Below the pieces are notes generated by a model. That model ran no database searches and had not been told where the DNA came from. It saw only the letters and a program-made list of their open reading frames with translations. This document shows positions 1-7,235 of a stretch of 64,000 bases of DNA, one piece after another (the stretch's first letter is position 1; each line of letters starts with the position of its first letter). Origin of the DNA: Actibacterium sp. (GTDB lineage Bacteria > Pseudomonadota > Alphaproteobacteria > Rhodobacterales > Rhodobacteraceae); contig JADQCB010000002.1 in NCBI GenBank assembly GCA_016278325.1, forward strand, positions 186,001 through 250,000. Direction: 5' to 3'. Made by a program: the position numbers and the translations under genes.

Positions 1-222
1 CGCGCCGCGGCCGATGGTCACCAGCGCGCCCGGATCCTCCGACCCGTCGGCGACAATGCCCCGCGGCCGGTGATACTTGAACGACCGCCCGACCAGGCGA
101 ACGCCGTTGGCCAGCAGCGCCGAGGCCAGCGTGTCACCCTCGTGCCCCCAGAAACGGCGCCCGTCAAAGGTGAAGGGGATGGTGACCCTGCGGTCCACCC
201 GCCCATGGCCGGCGACCCTCAT
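1..222 (-). CDS. soxA: Sarcosine oxidase alpha subunit, N-terminal part (runs off window)
   Basis: Only the first 74 codons are inside the window. They match the SoxA amino-terminal domain: an FTFDG stretch, then GDTLASALLANGV and a GRSFKYHRPRGI motif near residues 48-59, which is the 2Fe-2S-ferredoxin-like noncatalytic Fer2_4 region of alpha subunits. In heterotetrameric sarcosine oxidase the alpha subunit carries NAD+ and the folate-binding domains. The ATG at 222 overlaps the end of soxD by 4 bases (ATGA), indicating translational coupling. The gene is the seventh of an operon that starts near 6.67 kb. A soxG gene would be expected beyond the left edge. Confidence 0.9.
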   Translation of the reverse strand, partial: MRVAGHGRVDRRVTIPFTFDGRRFWGHEGDTLASALLANGVRLVGRSFKYHRPRGIVADGSEDPGALVTIGRGA

Positions 223-491
223 TGCGCACCCGCCCGGACATCGCTGGCCAGCCTCACCGACAGCACCGCGTGGCTGAGCGTGTTGCGCCCGACCACCAGC
301 CAGGCACCGCAGCCGGCCGCGTGCTGCCACAAATCGCGCGTCTCGCCCGCCGGGTTGTCGCGCAGATGCAGGTAATCCTCCCATGCCTCGGGCGGCGCCT
401 GGGGGCCGGGGCGATCCAGATAGACCGCGCAGCCCAGGTAATGGAACTCGCGCCGGTCGCGCGCCCCGCACAGCGGGCATGTGATCCTCAT
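219..491 (-). CDS. soxD: Sarcosine oxidase delta subunit
   Basis: This 90-residue protein matches SoxD, the small zinc-binding subunit of heterotetrameric sarcosine oxidase. It begins MRITCPLCG, giving the first Cys pair (C5, C8), and has a later DLWQH...GC segment supplying the other probable zinc ligands, followed by a WLVVGRNT stretch typical of the family. The start at 491 was chosen because homologues begin MRI/MLL just before the first Cys pair; an upstream in-frame extension to 578 has no family similarity. It sits between soxB and soxA, the standard soxBDAG order, and overlaps soxA by 4 bases. Confidence 0.93.
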   Translation of the reverse strand: MRITCPLCGARDRREFHYLGCAVYLDRPGPQAPPEAWEDYLHLRDNPAGETRDLWQHAAGCGAWLVVGRNTLSHAVLSVRLASDVRAGAQ

Positions 492-559
492 TGCGCGCTC
501 CCTTCTTCTTCTCGGCCCAAATACTCTCGCCGAAGGCGGCGTCGGCGCAGGACGCCCCC

Positions 560-1810
560 TCAATGCAGATTGTGGCAAGAGCCTGTGCCCTCTTCATCCA
601 GCAGATCGCCGCGCGCGAACCGGTCCAGCCGGAACCGCGCCGCCGGGTCGTGGTGGCGCCCCGTCGCCAGCAGATGCGCGAACGACCAGCCAGAGCCCGG
701 CACCGCCTTGAACCCGCCATAGCACCAGCCGCAATTGACATAGAGCCCGTCCACCGATGTGCGGTCGATGATCGGGCTGCCATCGGGCGTCATGTCCATG
801 ATCCCGCCCCAGCTGCGCAGGATGCGCGCCTTGCCGATCATCGGCATCAGCGTCATCCCGGCCTCCATCACATGCTCGGCCATCGGCAGGTTTCCGCGTT
901 GCGCATAGGAGGCATGGAAATCCAGGTCGCCGCCAAAGACAAGCCCGCCCTTGTCCGACTGGCTGATATAGAAATGCCCCATGCCGAAGCTCACCACATG
1001 ATCGATCACCGGCTTCAGCCCCTCGGTGACGAAGGCCTGCAGGATATGGCTCTCGATCGGCAGGCGCAGGCCGGCCATCGCCGCCACCTGACCCGAGCGG
1101 CCGGCCACCACGATCCCGACCTTGCCCGCGCGGATCGGCCCGCGGCTGGTCTGCACCCCCCTGACCCGGCCGCCCTCGATGTCGATGCCCGTCACCTCGC
1201 AGTTCTGGATCAGGTCCACCCCGCGCGAATCCGCGCCGCGGGCATAGCCCCAGGCCACCGCGTCATGCCGCGCGGTGCCGCCGCGCGGGTGATACAACCC
1301 GCCATGGATCGGAAAGCGCGCCTGCTCGAAATCCAGATAGGGCAGGATCGCGCGCACCCCTTCGCGATCCAGCAGGATCGCGTCGTCGCCCTGGTTGATC
1401 ATCGCGTTGCCACGCCGGGCGAAAGCGTCGCGCTGCCCGTCGGAATGGAACAGGTTGATCAGCCCGCGCTGCGAATGCATCACGTTGAAGTTCAGTTCCT
1501 GCGACAGCCCCTCCCACAGCTTCAGCGAATGGCTGTAGAACTCGGAATTGCCGGGCAGAAAGTAATTGGCGCGCACGATGGTGGTGTTTCGCCCGACATT
1601 GCCGCCGCCCAGATACCCCTTTTCCAGCACCGCGACATTGCGCAGCCCGTGTTCGCGCGCCAGGTAATAGGCGGTGGCCAGCCCGTGCCCGCCGCCGCCC
1701 ACGATGACGATGTCGTAATGCGGTTTCGGCTCGGGGTCACGCCAGACCGGGCGCCAGCCCCGGTTTCCGGTGAGCCCCTGGGCGAGCAGCCTGAACCCCG
1801 AATATCGCAT
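560..1810 (-). CDS. soxB: Sarcosine oxidase beta subunit (FAD/FMN amine oxidase)
   Basis: This 416-residue flavoprotein oxidises sarcosine or a related secondary amino acid in the cytoplasm. It has a Rossmann FAD motif, IVIVGGGGHGLATAYYLA (about residues 34-51), followed by GGGNVGRNTT. The TARHDAVAWG segment (His about 182) corresponds to the histidine that, as I recall, covalently binds FMN in known SoxB, so the catalytic features look intact. The start was set at MRYSGF (1810), the conserved SoxB amino terminus, with AGGGACAGG upstream. It follows dctM by 78 bases and precedes soxD by 68, consistent with one operon. Substrate specificity is not decided by sequence: sarcosine, other N-methyl amino acids or cyclic imino acids are possible. 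Confidence 0.92.
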   Translation of the reverse strand: MRYSGFRLLAQGLTGNRGWRPVWRDPEPKPHYDIVIVGGGGHGLATAYYLAREHGLRNVAVLEKGYLGGGNVGRNTTIVRANYFLPGNSEFYSHSLKLWEGLSQELNFNVMHSQRGLINLFHSDGQRDAFARRGNAMINQGDDAILLDREGVRAILPYLDFEQARFPIHGGLYHPRGGTARHDAVAWGYARGADSRGVDLIQNCEVTGIDIEGGRVRGVQTSRGPIRAGKVGIVVAGRSGQVAAMAGLRLPIESHILQAFVTEGLKPVIDHVVSFGMGHFYISQSDKGGLVFGGDLDFHASYAQRGNLPMAEHVMEAGMTLMPMIGKARILRSWGGIMDMTPDGSPIIDRTSVDGLYVNCGWCYGGFKAVPGSGWSFAHLLATGRHHDPAARFRLDRFARGDLLDEEGTGSCHNLH

Positions 1811-1888
1811 GCGCCTGTCCCTGCCCTTCAGCAATGCATCAAAGCAACTCGGACCAGCCCGATCAATGCCTGATATTCGCGTCGCGCC

Positions 1889-3169
1889 CTACCTGTAGAC
1901 CAAGGTCGGCAGCCACATCGTGACCATCGGGACATAGGTGATGAACAGCAACACCAGGACCAGGGGGATCAGGAACGGCGCGGTGCCGACCACGGCACGC
2001 TCGAAGGGGATGTTGGCGACCCGGCTGAGCACGTATAGCACCATGCCGACGGGCGGGGTCAGCAGGCCCAGCATCAGGTTGAGAACCATGATCACGCCGA
2101 AATGCACCGGGTCCACCCCGATCGCCACCGCGACCGGCAGCAGAACCGGGACCATGATGGTGATCGCCGCAACGGTTTCCATGAAACAGCCGACCACCAG
2201 CAGGATCAGGTTGATCAGCAAAAGGATCACCCAGGGCCGGTCCGAGGTCGACAGAAGCAACGAGGCCACCGCCTCGGGCACCCGGTTCGAGGTGAGGATC
2301 CAGGCGAAGATCGAGGCCGCGGCGACCACGAACAGCACCACGGCCGTCGTCTCGATCGTGTCATAGCTGACGCGCAGGAAACGGCGCAGGCTCAGGGTGC
2401 GATAGACGACGAGCCCCAGGAAAAGCGCCCAGGCACAGGCCGCCACCGCGGCCTCGGTCGGGGTGAAGGCCCCCGACAGGATGCCGCCGACGATGATGAC
2501 CGGCGTCATCAGCGACAGGAAGGCACGCTGAAAGGTGGTGAACATCCGACCCAGCTGAAAGCGCTGGTCGCGGGGAAAGCCGCGCCGGCGCGCCATGAAG
2601 GCGACCATCAGCATCAGCGCCGCCGCCATCACCATCCCCGGCAGGAACCCCGCCGCGAAAAGCTGCCCGATCGAGGCCCCGGCCACGACGCCGTAGATCA
2701 CCATCGGCAGCGATGGCGGGATGATCGGGCCGATCGTCGAAGACGCCGCGGTGATGCCGACCGAGAACTCGGAATCGTAATCGGCATCGCGCATCGCCTT
2801 GATCTCGATGGAGCCGAGCCCGCCGGCATCGGCCACCGCGGCGCCCGACATGCCCGCGAAGATCACCGAGGCGCCGATATTCACATGGCCCAGCCCGCCG
2901 CGCATCCAGCCGACCAGGGACAGGGCAAAGTTGAAGATCCGCTCGGTGATGCCGGCGGTGTTCATCAGGTTGCCGGCCAGGATGAAGAACGGAACCGCCA
3001 GCAGCGGAAAGCTGTCGACGCCGTTGATCATGCGATGCGCAACCACCATCGGCGGGACGCCGCCGAAGGTCAGCAGGAACACCGCCGAGGATCCGGCCAG
3101 GGCGATGGCCACGGGCACGCCGAAGACCAGCAAGAGGAACAGAACGATGAAAAGGGTCGCGATTTCCAC
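1889..3169 (-). CDS. dctM: TRAP transporter large permease (DctM family)
   Basis: This 426-residue, very hydrophobic protein has about 12 predicted membrane segments. It carries typical DctM features: an early LAVPFFILAGNLM segment, ANIGASVIFAGMSG-like glycines around residues 97-112 and a PPSLPMVIYG loop. It is the ion-coupled transmembrane channel of a tripartite ATP-independent periplasmic transporter. The start is GTG at 3169, ten bases after the end of dctQ. It works with the DctQ and DctP proteins encoded immediately upstream in the same operon. Substrate cannot be told from the permease; the adjoining soxBDA genes suggest an N-methylated or cyclic amino acid. Confidence 0.93.
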   Translation of the reverse strand: MEIATLFIVLFLLLVFGVPVAIALAGSSAVFLLTFGGVPPMVVAHRMINGVDSFPLLAVPFFILAGNLMNTAGITERIFNFALSLVGWMRGGLGHVNIGASVIFAGMSGAAVADAGGLGSIEIKAMRDADYDSEFSVGITAASSTIGPIIPPSLPMVIYGVVAGASIGQLFAAGFLPGMVMAAALMLMVAFMARRRGFPRDQRFQLGRMFTTFQRAFLSLMTPVIIVGGILSGAFTPTEAAVAACAWALFLGLVVYRTLSLRRFLRVSYDTIETTAVVLFVVAAASIFAWILTSNRVPEAVASLLLSTSDRPWVILLLINLILLVVGCFMETVAAITIMVPVLLPVAVAIGVDPVHFGVIMVLNLMLGLLTPPVGMVLYVLSRVANIPFERAVVGTAPFLIPLVLVLLFITYVPMVTMWLPTLVYR

Positions 3170-3178
3170 GGCTGGATC

Positions 3179-3751
3179 CTACTCCATTCTTGGCACGTCA
3201 CCGGCGTGCAGTTCGGGGTCGATGAGCTTGGATGTGCCGCTGCGCAGATGGCGCCATGCATTGCGCAGCGCGTATAACGTCATCGCCGCGAAACAGGCGG
3301 CGACGAACCAGTAGACGATGGACTTGGGAACATTGATGGACACCATCATCTGCTGGGTGAGCCCGGCCACCTTGGTCGACATGTAGGCCAGGCCGCCGAA
3401 GAAGACGACATTGATCACGTCGATGATGAACTGGGCGACTCGGCGGACGCGCCTCGGCGCCCAGCGATAGAGAAACTCGACGGCGATATGGCTGTTCTTG
3501 CGCACCGCCATGACCGACCCGGTGAAGGTCACCGCGATCAGCAGGAAACGCGCGATCTCTTCGGTCCAGCCAAGCGAATCGTTCAGCACATAGCGTGTGA
3601 AGAACTGAAGGAAGACGACGAAGGCCAGCACCCAGAAGACAAGCAGAACCAGCGTGTCGTCCCACTTGATGTCTGACAGGTCGATCTCGGTCTCATCGAG
3701 CGCGAGATCATGCAGCGTCTCGTCGTCACGGTCGGCCCGCGTGTCGGCCAT
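3179..3751 (-). CDS. dctQ: TRAP transporter small permease (DctQ family)
   Basis: This 190-residue protein has four predicted membrane segments and the DctQ signature region LGWTEEIARFLLIAVTFTGS (about residues 59-78). An acidic amino-terminal extension of about 30 residues precedes the first membrane helix, which makes it longer than a minimal DctQ. An ATG start at 3751 with GCAGGAGA upstream is convincing. It couples to the DctM channel encoded just downstream. A perfect 9-bp hairpin lies between it and dctP and may set differential transcript levels of binding protein and permease. Confidence 0.92.
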   Translation of the reverse strand: MADTRADRDDETLHDLALDETEIDLSDIKWDDTLVLLVFWVLAFVVFLQFFTRYVLNDSLGWTEEIARFLLIAVTFTGSVMAVRKNSHIAVEFLYRWAPRRVRRVAQFIIDVINVVFFGGLAYMSTKVAGLTQQMMVSINVPKSIVYWFVAACFAAMTLYALRNAWRHLRSGTSKLIDPELHAGDVPRME

Positions 3752-3835
3752 GCTCGGTCTCCTGCTGAAAAACGCGGCACATCTGGCCGTCGTCGGGTCG
3801 TCGGGTCGTCACGCCGCCGGGGGCGGGGCGCGTGA

Positions 3836-3860
3836 CCGGCCGGGAAAGCCCCCCGGCCGG
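3836..3860 (-). other. Intercistronic hairpin between dctP and dctQ
   Basis: A perfect 9-bp GC-only inverted repeat (3836-3844 with 3852-3860, 7-base loop) lies just after the dctP stop codon. No U-tract follows it on the minus strand. Such hairpins after solute-binding protein genes often protect the upstream mRNA or partly terminate transcription, so more binding protein than permease is made. That role is inferred here from position only. Confidence 0.5.
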
Positions 3861-3873
3861 CCCGTGCCGGTGC

Positions 3874-4869
3874 TTACTTGCCGATGGCCTGAAGGCGATC
3901 ATAGGTTTCCTGGTCCCAGGTCGCCATTTCGCCGTTATGCATCTTCTTCACCGCCTCGATGAACGGGCCGCGATCGACCTCGTTGACCTGCACGCCCTGG
4001 TCGCGGAACCAGGCCACAAGCTCGTTCTCCTGCTCGATGATCTGGTCGGTGGCACAGCTGGCCGTGTCCTCCAGCACCTTGACCAGCGCATCGCGATCCG
4101 CCGCGTCCATGCTGTTCCAGGTGGGGCCGCCGACGATGGTCAGAAGCGCGTCGGTGATATGACCCGTGAGGTTGATATTGCTCTGCACCTCATAGAACTT
4201 CTTGGCCTTGATCGTGGGCAGCGGGTTCTCTTGCGCATCCACGGTGCCTTGCTGAAGCGCCAGATAGACTTCGGCAAAGGCGATCGGCGTCGGGTTCGCG
4301 CCGACGGCTTCCGGGAACATCATGTAGAGCGGCGCATTCGGCACCCGGATCTTCAGCCCCTCCATGTCCTCGGGCTTGGTGATCGGCTTGTTCGAGGTGA
4401 CGTGCCGGTTGCCGTAATAGGTCATCGCCACGATGTGGTTGCCGGTCGCATCGGCATAGCCCTGCGCCAGTTCCTTGAAGAGATCGGAATTGCGATAGGC
4501 GTCCCAGTGCTCGAAATCGCGGAACATGTAGGGCGCCCCGCCGATGGCGATCGGCCCATAGGCGCGGCCGGCAAAAAGCTGGCCGGTATAGATGATGTCG
4601 ACGGTGCCCAGGCCGAGCCCCTCGTTGATGTCGACCTCCTTGCCCAGAGAAGAGGCCGGATAGACCTCGATCCCGTAGCGGCCATCGGTCGCCTTCACCA
4701 GGTCGTCGTTGGCGGCGACGGCGCAGGTATGATACGGCTCGCTCGATTCATAGACATGGGCGAATTTCAGGACATTGTCGGCCTCTTGCGCGAAAGCGGT
4801 GGCGGTGCCGAAGGACAATGCCGCCGCGGCAGTGCTCGCAAGGGCGATGGCGTGGGTAACTGTCTTCAT
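3874..4869 (-). CDS. dctP: TRAP transporter substrate-binding protein (DctP family)
   Basis: This 331-residue periplasmic protein opens with a Sec signal peptide (MKTVTHAIALASTAAAAL..., cleavage near ATAFAQE, about residue 28). The mature part shows the DctP pattern: a KPEDMEGLKIRVP motif near residue 161, followed by an AFAEVYLALQQGTVDAQENP segment with the helix-backbone signature of TRAP receptors; the Arg of KIRVP normally binds the substrate carboxylate. ATG at 4869 has a strong AGGGAGGAG site. It lies 33 bases downstream of the regulator-dehydrogenase fusion gene. The ligand is probably an organic or amino acid with a carboxylate; operon context favours an imino or N-methyl amino acid. 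Confidence 0.93.
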   Translation of the reverse strand: MKTVTHAIALASTAAAALSFGTATAFAQEADNVLKFAHVYESSEPYHTCAVAANDDLVKATDGRYGIEVYPASSLGKEVDINEGLGLGTVDIIYTGQLFAGRAYGPIAIGGAPYMFRDFEHWDAYRNSDLFKELAQGYADATGNHIVAMTYYGNRHVTSNKPITKPEDMEGLKIRVPNAPLYMMFPEAVGANPTPIAFAEVYLALQQGTVDAQENPLPTIKAKKFYEVQSNINLTGHITDALLTIVGGPTWNSMDAADRDALVKVLEDTASCATDQIIEQENELVAWFRDQGVQVNEVDRGPFIEAVKKMHNGEMATWDQETYDRLQAIGK

Positions 4870-4902
4870 GGTTTCTCCTCCCTGGTAGATGCTGTCAGGC
4901 CG

Positions 4903-6666
4903 TCATGCAGACGGCCCGATCTTCAATGGCGAAATCTCGTGTTCGCCGGCGAAACGGGCAAGCAGGTCAAGCGTGGTCGTATCCAGCTTGATCCCCTTCG
5001 CCCGTCGGCGCGCAGCCTCGGCCCATTCGCGGTCGCCGGGGGCCATGACGGTCTCGCCCGGCGCACAGGCCGATCGGCGGATCGCGTCCAGATAGCGTGA
5101 AATCACGGCGCGGAATATCTCGGCGCCGCTGAATGCCTCGGGGTCGAGCGCCAGGACGAAGGCGCCCAGCCGGCGCGGGGTTTTCATGTCGTCGCTGATC
5201 ATCGGCGGTATCTCGAAGCTCAGCGGCGCGTCGCCGAGGGCGGTCGACAGGATTTCCGACAGCCCGGCAAGCCCCGCGCCCTTGTAGCCGAACAGGGCCC
5301 CGCCCAGCGGGGCCAGCATCTCGACCAGCGCCGGGTCGGTGACATTGACCCCCTGCGCGTCCGAGGCCACGTCATCGGGCAAATCCACCCCCAGGCTGCG
5401 CGAAAGCTGCACCTTGTTGAACGGAATCGCGCTGGTGGCCATGTCCAGAAGCCAGGGCTCGCCCGCGGTGGCGGGGGCGGCGGCGGCAATCGGGTTGGTG
5501 CCGTGAAACCGCTCGGCCCCGCCATGCAGCCGCACGAAGGAATCCGAGTTGCACACGCTCAGCCCCATCATGCCGTTGCGCGCGATTTCCATCGCATAGG
5601 CCCCCGAAGCGCCGAAATGCGACGAGCCGCGAATCGCAACGGCGCCCAGGCCGTGGATGCGTGCCCGCGCGACGGCGATGGACGCGGCCTCATAGGCGGC
5701 GCGGGCGCCATGGGCGTTGTCGGCCTCCAGCACGCAGGCGCCGCCCTTCTCGTTGAGAATACGCATCGCGGGCACCGGGTTCAGACGCCCGCCTGCGAAA
5801 CCCGCCAGGTAATGCGGCAGCAGTCGAAACCCGTGCGTGTCCACGCCCAGGCCCGACGCATGCAAAAGCGCGCGCGTGACCGCGTCGACGGTCGGCTGGT
5901 CGGCCCCCACCGCGGCAAGCGCGGCACGCGAAAAGCGTTCCATCTCGGCCAGATCGATCCGTTCCGATCCGGGCGCGGCGGCGCCCGGCCCGCGTTCGCG
6001 GTCCAGCCGGTCGAGATAATTGCGCGTCGTGTCGGCAACGTGGCCGCGAAGGATGCGAAGGGCATCGTCGCAGCGGCCTTCGGCCAATGCGTCGCGGATC
6101 GCGATATGCTCTTCCAGCGAGCGATCGTTCAATGCCGGATCCAGAGACAGCCGGTTGCGCAGCGCCTGCACCCGGAACGACAGCGTCGCGAACTGTCTTT
6201 CGAGATAGCTGTTGCCGCATTCGGCGAAGATCGCGCGGTGATAGTCGTTGTCCAAGGCCTTGTAGGCGTCGGTATCGCCCTGCTCCAGCGCGGCCTGCAT
6301 CGCGGTGACGATCTCGCCCAGCCGCCGGCTCAGCGACTCGGGGTTGCGGTCGCAGGCCAGGCGCATCGATTCGATTTCCAGAATCTGGCGCAGCTCGCCC
6401 AGCTCCGCGATCTCCGAGCGATCCATGGTGAAGACGCGGGTGGTGCGCCCCGGGAACATCTTGACCAGCCCCTCGCGTTCGAGCTGCAAGAGCGCCTCGC
6501 GGATCGGACTCTTGCTCATCCCGAGGATCTCGACGAGCTCTGCCTCGGGCAACCGGCGCCCCATCGGGAATCCGCCCGAAACGATCCTCTCACGGATCGT
6601 TTCACGCGCCAGCGCCGAGAGCTTCTGCCGGTCCGCCGGCGTGTTCCGCGACATCGTGGTGGTCAC
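4903..6666 (-). CDS. GntR/FCD transcription regulator fused to Ldh-family oxidoreductase
   Basis: A single uninterrupted reading frame of 587 residues joins two complete proteins. Residues about 15-80 form a GntR winged helix-turn-helix. Residues about 85-220 are an FCD ligand-binding domain retaining the Asp-His-His-His metal site (D139 or D141, H143, H187, H209). After a short Gly/Ala/Pro linker (about 225-236), residues 237-587 are a full malate/L-lactate/ureidoglycolate dehydrogenase-like (Ldh_2) domain: [10 protein letters not shown] with the family catalytic His (H278), [29 protein letters not shown] and a [10 protein letters not shown] segment. Relatives reduce 2-oxo acids or cyclic imino acids (for example piperideine- and pyrroline-2-carboxylate). 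GTG at 6666 is preferred because GGAGG lies 5 bases upstream; ATG at 6654 is an alternative. It heads the dctPQM-soxBDA operon and probably controls it. Confidence 0.88.
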
Positions 6667-6687
6667 ATGCTCCTCCCTCAGAGGCGC

Positions 6688-6715
6688 AGGATATATCATA
6701 TATCACATCGTTCAA
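6688..6715 (-). promoter_or_regulatory. Promoter and candidate GntR operator of the fusion/TRAP/sox operon
   Basis: A perfect 15-bp palindrome of two 7-bp GATATAT/ATATATC arms around a central base occupies 6690-6704. Its AT richness stands out in very GC-rich DNA. On the minus strand TTGAAC (6710-6715) and TATCCT (6688-6693) form a -35/-10 pair with a 16-base spacer, so the palindrome fills the spacer and touches the -10. A bound FCD-type repressor would block RNA polymerase. The likely ligand-controlled binder is the fusion protein itself; this is inferred, not shown. Confidence 0.65.
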
Positions 6716-6778
6716 CCCCCGTGTTTTCCTGTCCGCCTGTCCCGGCAGGCGCGCGATAGGTGATGCCACGGGGACTTG

Positions 6779-6805
6779 CATGTGCCCGGCGCGGCCGGGC
6801 ACATG
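6779..6805 (-). terminator. Hairpin downstream of the ferredoxin gene
   Basis: A perfect 12-bp inverted repeat with a 3-base loop (6779-6790 and 6794-6805, core TGTGCCCGGC) lies 65 bases after the end of the ferredoxin gene and before the promoter of the next minus-strand operon. It lacks a clear U-tract, so termination may be inefficient or factor-assisted. Confidence 0.55.
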
Positions 6806-6869
6806 GCAGCAGGGCCAGGGCAGAACGGTCGGGGACTCCTGTCGCGTGGCGACGGCCGCCGCGCGGGTG

Positions 6870-7235
<366 letters not shown>

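Follow-up and report, generated by a model that had tools for sequence, protein, structure and literature searches.

To our knowledge, few bacterial transcription factors double as working catabolic enzymes, and the textbook case of a transcription factor combined with a catabolic enzyme is PutA. We know of no separate effector domain of the FCD kind in PutA and of no FCD domain in MocR/GabR-type regulators. In the trifunctional PutA of E. coli and Salmonella, an N-terminal DNA-binding domain represses the protein's own gene and the substrate-transporter gene, as set out in PMC5293562. MocR/GabR-type regulators join a GntR winged helix to an aminotransferase-fold domain, which PMC5320631 describes as sensory. 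For the protein reported here, a GntR/FCD regulator fused to an Ldh_2 dehydrogenase in Actibacterium sp., PutA is the closest described system by working principle and MocR the closest by layout; neither is a membership match.

The protein resembles PutA in carrying a DNA-binding domain at the N-terminus of a probable catabolic enzyme, and its gene order and conserved upstream repeat fit autogenous control. Its parts differ, however: PutA combines a ribbon-helix-helix domain with a flavin proline dehydrogenase and a P5C dehydrogenase, whereas here GntR/FCD is combined with Ldh_2. No RHH, PRODH or P5CDH domain and no class I aminotransferase domain was found among the Pfam matches of the window protein (the window being the whole 64,000-nucleotide stretch analysed). 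The protein is like MocR/GabR in fusing a GntR winged helix to an enzyme-derived domain but, unlike the sensory domain described for that group, its dehydrogenase keeps both catalytic histidines. It shares the winged-helix and FCD layout of DgoR, CitO, TM0439, PmiR and Atu1419, matching the fold of the last three, and shares the Asp/His metal-site residues with DgoR and related structures, whereas all five are free-standing regulators. Similarly, it has the complete Ldh_2 fold and both catalytic histidines of 1z2i (Agrobacterium tumefaciens), AllD, YiaK and DpkA; those enzymes are free-standing (solved chains of 330-360 residues), whereas here about 230 regulator residues precede the enzyme. 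No published description of a GntR/FCD-Ldh_2 fusion was found, by title and opening of the abstract, among the papers listed from the open full-text literature, a scope outside which most subscription papers lie, and the terms 'FCD', 'Ldh' and 'dehydrogenase' do not occur in PMC5882156.

The fusion gene occupies positions 4903-6666 on the minus strand as a single unbroken frame of 587 residues, with a GTG start at 6666 and a stop at 4903. The GTG comes after a ribosome-binding sequence, GGGAGGAG, read at 6670-6677 (minus strand), and agrees with the starts of homologues; a 598-residue frame beginning at the ATG at 6699, within the inverted repeat described below, represents this same gene, and GTG 6666 was preferred. 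Pfam placed a GntR winged helix-turn-helix at residues 21-78 (6433-6606, minus strand; PF00392, 52.6 bits), an FCD effector domain at residues 88-211 (6034-6405, minus strand; PF07729, 77.6 bits) and an Ldh_2 dehydrogenase domain at residues 238-568 (4963-5955, minus strand; PF02615, 294.3 bits), each above its curated cut-off. The Ldh_2 domain is whole, with positions 2-331 of 333 of PF02615 covered (294 bits), and the inter-domain linker has its core at residues 226-232 (5971-5991, minus strand). The same GntR-FCD-Ldh_2 architecture was recovered in all seven fused relatives scanned (eight relatives in all). The original prediction of a regulator and a dehydrogenase in one polypeptide is confirmed by the frame, the Pfam matches and the nine fused species described below. 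Met242 (ATG, window 5941-5943), at the head of the Ldh_2 half, is Met in 9/9 fused proteins, and the corresponding position in 33 unfused enzymes is never Met (0/33) and is mostly Leu, Ile or Val. An internal translation start at Met242 was considered and not adopted, because no common ribosome-binding sequence was seen ahead of this codon in the upstream bases of the fused genes.

An AlphaFold2 model of the fusion, built on a 48-row alignment, had a mean pLDDT of 88.8 and a pTM of 0.62, and it was used instead of a nine-row model with a mean pLDDT of 68.4 and a poor Ldh_2 half. With a pTM of 0.62, the model tells little about the contact between the halves. Segments of at least three residues with pLDDT below 50 occurred only at residues 1-6 and 226-231, the latter being the join. 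Foldseek matched the Ldh_2 half to 1z2i_A (TMt 0.97, rmsd 1.3, 54% identity in the Foldseek alignment) and the regulator half to PmiR (7xp1, TMt 0.81), TM0439 (3sxy_A, TMt 0.89) and also Atu1419. Selection was estimated by dN/dS (NG86) in four species pairs that leave out L043 and L044, the latter being the most divergent. The ratios were 0.05-0.08 for the helix-turn-helix (residues 14-80), 0.16-0.36 for FCD, 0.10-0.23 for Ldh_2 and 0.47-1.5 for the linker region (residues 223-235, 13 codons only). The results showed that the helix-turn-helix, FCD and Ldh_2 domains, but not the linker, are under purifying selection in these four pairs.

A search of Rhodobacterales for the architecture, suggested with the original prediction, returned nine fused species after removal of duplicates (G001 = L010; G153 = L014/L042; G639 = L060 = L011), with 57-84% identity to the window protein; homologues in which the two parts are always separate, named beforehand as the finding that would count against the fusion, are therefore not what was seen. 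The nine are the window, Actibacterium sp. Soudan_11 (a MAG of the window's genus), Psychromarinibacter sediminicola, two Limimaricola, Oceanicola granulosus, an uncultured Rhodobacteraceae and the genomes G189 and G026. Six of the nine belong to the window's family, and the named genera looked up in NCBI taxonomy belong to the order Rhodobacterales. A scan of genome contigs gave seven loci, six matching both halves and one (L016) matching Ldh_2 only. The family sample (394 genomes, E ≤ 1e-60) gave 25 matching genomes, 5 with both halves (window included) and 20 with Ldh_2 only; the order sample (390 genomes) gave 20, with 4 fused and 16 unfused; the class sample (385 genomes) gave 4, only the window's own genome being fused and 3 unfused; and the phylum sample (398 genomes, E ≤ 1e-50) gave 9, again with only the window's own genome fused and 8 unfused. 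The samples overlap one another, and scoring was limited to three candidates per genome. Unfused Ldh_2 is thus the commoner state among matching genomes (20/25, 16/20, 3/4 and 8/9), and no fusion outside the window's family was found among the matches in the class (385 genomes) and phylum (398 genomes) samples at the thresholds used. The regulator half was covered in none of the 28 plasmid records having a match, and a long open frame in L111, considered as a further fusion, holds an unfused Ldh_2 gene.

In a midpoint-rooted Ldh_2 tree of the 9 fused and 33 unfused domains (all unfused loci from the family, order and class samples), the fused domains formed one side of a branch with support 100/100. 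Nearest to them were the unfused L021 and L061, of one genus (94/86, under the tool's star threshold). The GntR/FCD halves of the fusions also grouped together against 18 standalone relatives (SH-aLRT 100) in a quick tree in which long branches were flagged. Because the nine fused proteins group together in the trees of both halves, a single fusion event probably lies behind them. A sequencing or assembly error joining two genes is scarcely conceivable: the same in-frame join is present in nine species, which excludes both chance and assembly error, and no support for such an error was found. In a sister genus, Ldh_2, a GntR/FCD regulator, DctP, DctQ and DctM are separate genes in that order (L046:7520-12742, where the regulator was identified by Pfam; also in L103). 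The sister-genus regulator gave no match to the fused one at 1e-6, that of L103 reaching 30% identity over 182 residues (E 5e-6), and the closest standalone regulators in the family sample have 42% identity or less to the fusion.

Downstream of the fusion lie the genes of a TRAP transporter, all on the minus strand: the solute-binding protein DctP (3874-4869; PF03480), the small permease DctQ (3179-3751; PF04290) and the large permease DctM (1889-3169; PF06808). All eight fused loci with sequence beyond the fusion, the window among them, share the order fusion, DctP, DctQ, DctM, and each of the three genes is 67-89% identical where aligned; the ninth locus (L009/L010) is a short contig that ends inside DctP, the start of which is present. 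In the window, 33, 122 and 9 bases separate the successive genes from the fusion through dctP and dctQ to dctM, and genes beyond this unit vary among the fused loci as judged from ORF lists. A terminator-like site at 1862-1849, within the 54 bases between dctM and a soxB-like gene, gives a weak hint that the fusion-dctPQM unit ends there (the scan of 1800-6900 returned 8 sites against a shuffle mean of 3.1). The soxB-like gene, 54 bases past dctM in the region 219-1834 (minus strand), belongs to the sarcosine-oxidase beta-subunit family (TIGR01373, over cut-off), and a SoxD-like gene was seen by eye downstream of dctM in the same region. No counterpart of the window SoxB or SoxD turned up (E ≤ 1e-6) in the seven remaining fused loci that extend downstream, and the pair was therefore not used for substrate inference. 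Genomes G184 and G590 carry a closely related TRAP system (DctM about 82% identical) with an unfused Ldh_2 gene at the end of the operon (L049:7630-11525; L104:5517-9477), and neither of two regulator queries gave a tblastn match (E ≤ 1e-4) within a 16-17 kb stretch; this arrangement speaks for TRAP and Ldh_2 being paired even where no fusion exists. Apart from the fusion, no Ldh_2 gene was found in the genome of the window.

The site 6690-6704, named in the original prediction as a DNA-binding target, proved to be a perfect inverted repeat, GATATATGATATATC, which lies 24-38 bases upstream of the start codon and is regarded here as the probable operator. Its core, ATATSATAT, was present with at most one mismatch within 60 bases upstream of 8/9 fused genes (6 exact), beginning 33 to 43 bases ahead of the start codon, and was found nowhere else at this tolerance in 173,612 bases of fused-locus records. 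The 15 unfused loci (222,860 bases) contained no exact and 13 one-mismatch matches. These counts are descriptive only, because the upstream regions in which the pattern was counted are those that yielded it. A 14-base form, TATGATATATCATA, occurred in the 3.25 Mb window genome at up to two mismatches only at 6690-6704 (two overlapping registers). At three mismatches the form is unspecific, each of eight other genomes holding 4 to 35 sites among the matches listed, so its uniqueness is limited to the window genome at two mismatches or fewer. At up to three mismatches it was found in 7/9 fused loci, 0/15 unfused Ldh_2 loci and 7/8 of the loci that hold the nearest standalone regulators. In this third set the matches are variants, TCTGAGATATCAGA among them, and lie before or after the regulator gene at a distance of no more than about 200 bases. 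G026 had five sites, the only exact match being the fusion promoter and one two-mismatch site lying elsewhere, and the repeat of L010 gave no match to the 14-base form even at three mismatches. A sigma-70 consensus scan found 0 promoters (shuffle mean 0.8), so the repeat could not be positioned relative to a promoter.

The segment SKSPIR, which we take from family knowledge to lie in the DNA-reading helix, was present in 8/9 fused proteins, and the repeat was present upstream of the same eight. In 18/18 standalone relatives the helix conforms to S(K/R)(S/T)P(V/I)R, a similarity that agrees with the related sites found near both fused and standalone regulators. Because the conserved repeat sits at the upstream site 6690-6704, the fusion likely controls its own operon through it. 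L043 alone among the nine lacked the upstream repeat and departed from SKSPIR, so repeat-based control is not indispensable within the fused group, and the L043 regulator half is possibly losing or changing its target. In that protein (L043:7984-9759), TGRRE stands where the others have MSKSP. By eye, the nearest standalone regulators (L092, L093, L094, L096 and L097) lie beside apparent sugar-acid catabolic gene clusters, and a TCTGA-type variant of the repeat was seen near the regulator gene in 4/5 of them (not L092).

In the FCD half, the metal-site residues D139, H143, H187 and H209 were invariant in 9/9 fused proteins and matched the pattern Asp/Asn-x3-His ... His ... His of metal-binding members. 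The metal site proposed at the outset is therefore present, but D141, offered as an alternative to D139, is replaced by A or Q in two of the fused relatives and drops out. The residues are spaced 4/44/22, as in Ps5454, whose metal site is given as Asn144, His148, His192 and His214 in PMC7674646. In DgoR (same source) and CitO, a divalent metal in the FCD site is proposed to touch a carboxylate ligand. Four further residues, R165, Q167, R172 and D176, were invariant in the nine fusions and variable among 18 standalone proteins. This conservation, together with the metal site, suggests that the FCD domain still binds a ligand of its own.

In the Ldh_2 half, His278 and His350 were conserved in 9/9 fused and 33/33 unfused rows and align with AllD His44 and His116. 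The catalytic role had been assigned to His278, which is indeed present and invariant; the equivalent of AllD His116, the general base proposed in PMC3527362, is His350. In the alignment to AllD, H278, Y286, H350, S374, D375, M489 and R498 were invariant in 9/9 fused proteins, corresponding to AllD His44, Tyr52, His116, Ser140, Asp141, Met251 and Arg259, respectively, the roles of which are given in the same source. The predicted NAD(P) motifs, GTNP (389-392) and DMATS (408-412), were likewise present and invariant in all nine. AllD Arg48, described there as essential, is Leu282 here, as in 33/33 unfused enzymes, with the adjacent Arg281 invariant, and the position of AllD Ser43 is Thr in 8/9 fused proteins and Ser in one, so AllD chemistry cannot simply be assumed. 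The score against the AllD equivalog TIGR03175 was 164.7 bits, below the cut-off of 496.2, and no NCBIfam Ldh_2 equivalog among the matches listed exceeded its cut-off. Among solved relatives, the Agrobacterium 'malate dehydrogenase' 1z2i (E 9.9e-112) was far closer than the pyrroline/piperideine-2-carboxylate reductase 1wtj (E 1.8e-32). With 1wtj distant and the equivalogs under cut-off, the earlier idea of pyrroline- or piperideine-2-carboxylate as substrate is not specifically supported. The best solved relatives of DctP are named C4-dicarboxylate or sialic-acid binders but are not close enough to name its ligand. By their conserved residues, both halves look functional.

Family membership points to carboxylates for all three components, namely the TRAP importer, the probable metal-carboxylate sensor and the dehydrogenase of the hydroxy/oxo-acid type. 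We consider it probable (about 0.7) that the protein is a bifunctional autogenous regulator-enzyme of the TRAP operon, in which GntR represses, FCD senses a carboxylate and Ldh_2 consumes it. The GntR half would bind the inverted repeat ahead of its own start codon and control the four-gene unit fusion-dctP-dctQ-dctM. Control would most likely be repression rather than activation; the closeness of the repeat to the start codon favours this, and CitO shows that an FCD regulator can activate as well. FCD would take the carboxylate through its bound divalent metal, so that repression is relieved when the TRAP-imported compound is present: the imported acid or its product would fill FCD and the regulator would let go of its own promoter region. 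The Ldh_2 half would oxidise or reduce the imported compound, or a derivative, with NAD(P). The FCD signal and the Ldh_2 substrate may be the same or linked compounds, and repression would return because the regulator's own enzyme half removes the signal.

Three other readings were weighed against this one. Both halves may be active yet uncoupled, the fusion only fixing a 1:1 ratio and saving a gene boundary. The linker without clear constraint, the same parts as separate genes in the sister genus and the unfused TRAP-Ldh_2 pairing without a nearby regulator match in G184 and G590 all agree with this; however, nine species have retained the fusion after an apparently single origin, and a repressor present at enzyme-level amounts would presumably need a balancing response. 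We hold the uncoupled arrangement possible but somewhat doubtful, and it overlaps with the preferred autogenous reading, which requires no allosteric coupling. That the regulator half is vestigial, leaving a plain enzyme with a relic N-terminus, would suit L043, with its changed helix and absent repeat, but is very improbable given the low dN/dS of the helix-turn-helix in four pairs and the retention of SKSPIR in eight of nine proteins together with the repeat in the same eight.

The third reading moves the sensing to the enzyme. As in PutA, which shows that such switching exists (PMC5293562), Ldh_2 would be the main sensor, binding of substrate or NAD(P)H changing the dimer and freeing the DNA, with FCD mostly a scaffold. 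The short linker would suit such a switch, but FCD keeps its metal site in all nine fusions as well as four invariant residues that vary in the 18 standalone proteins, and the pTM of 0.62 offers little information on inter-half contact; we judge this reading unlikely. A broader version, a second and independently evolved PutA-type switch in which Ldh_2 occupancy (substrate or NAD(P)H) is passed through the short linker to FCD/GntR, is speculative and rather improbable. In such a switch, one molecule would combine the carboxylate signal of FCD with the redox or catalytic state of Ldh_2 at its own operator.

If the autogenous reading is true, the protein is a PutA-like regulator-enzyme built from unrelated domains, and it widens the range of domains known to follow an FCD domain. 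The family also supplies material for comparison, namely separate-gene relatives in the sister genus, L043 with a seemingly lost or changed target, and one small candidate operator. Because such relatives and an operator exist, what is gained from fusing a regulator to its pathway enzyme would be testable by splitting one gene.
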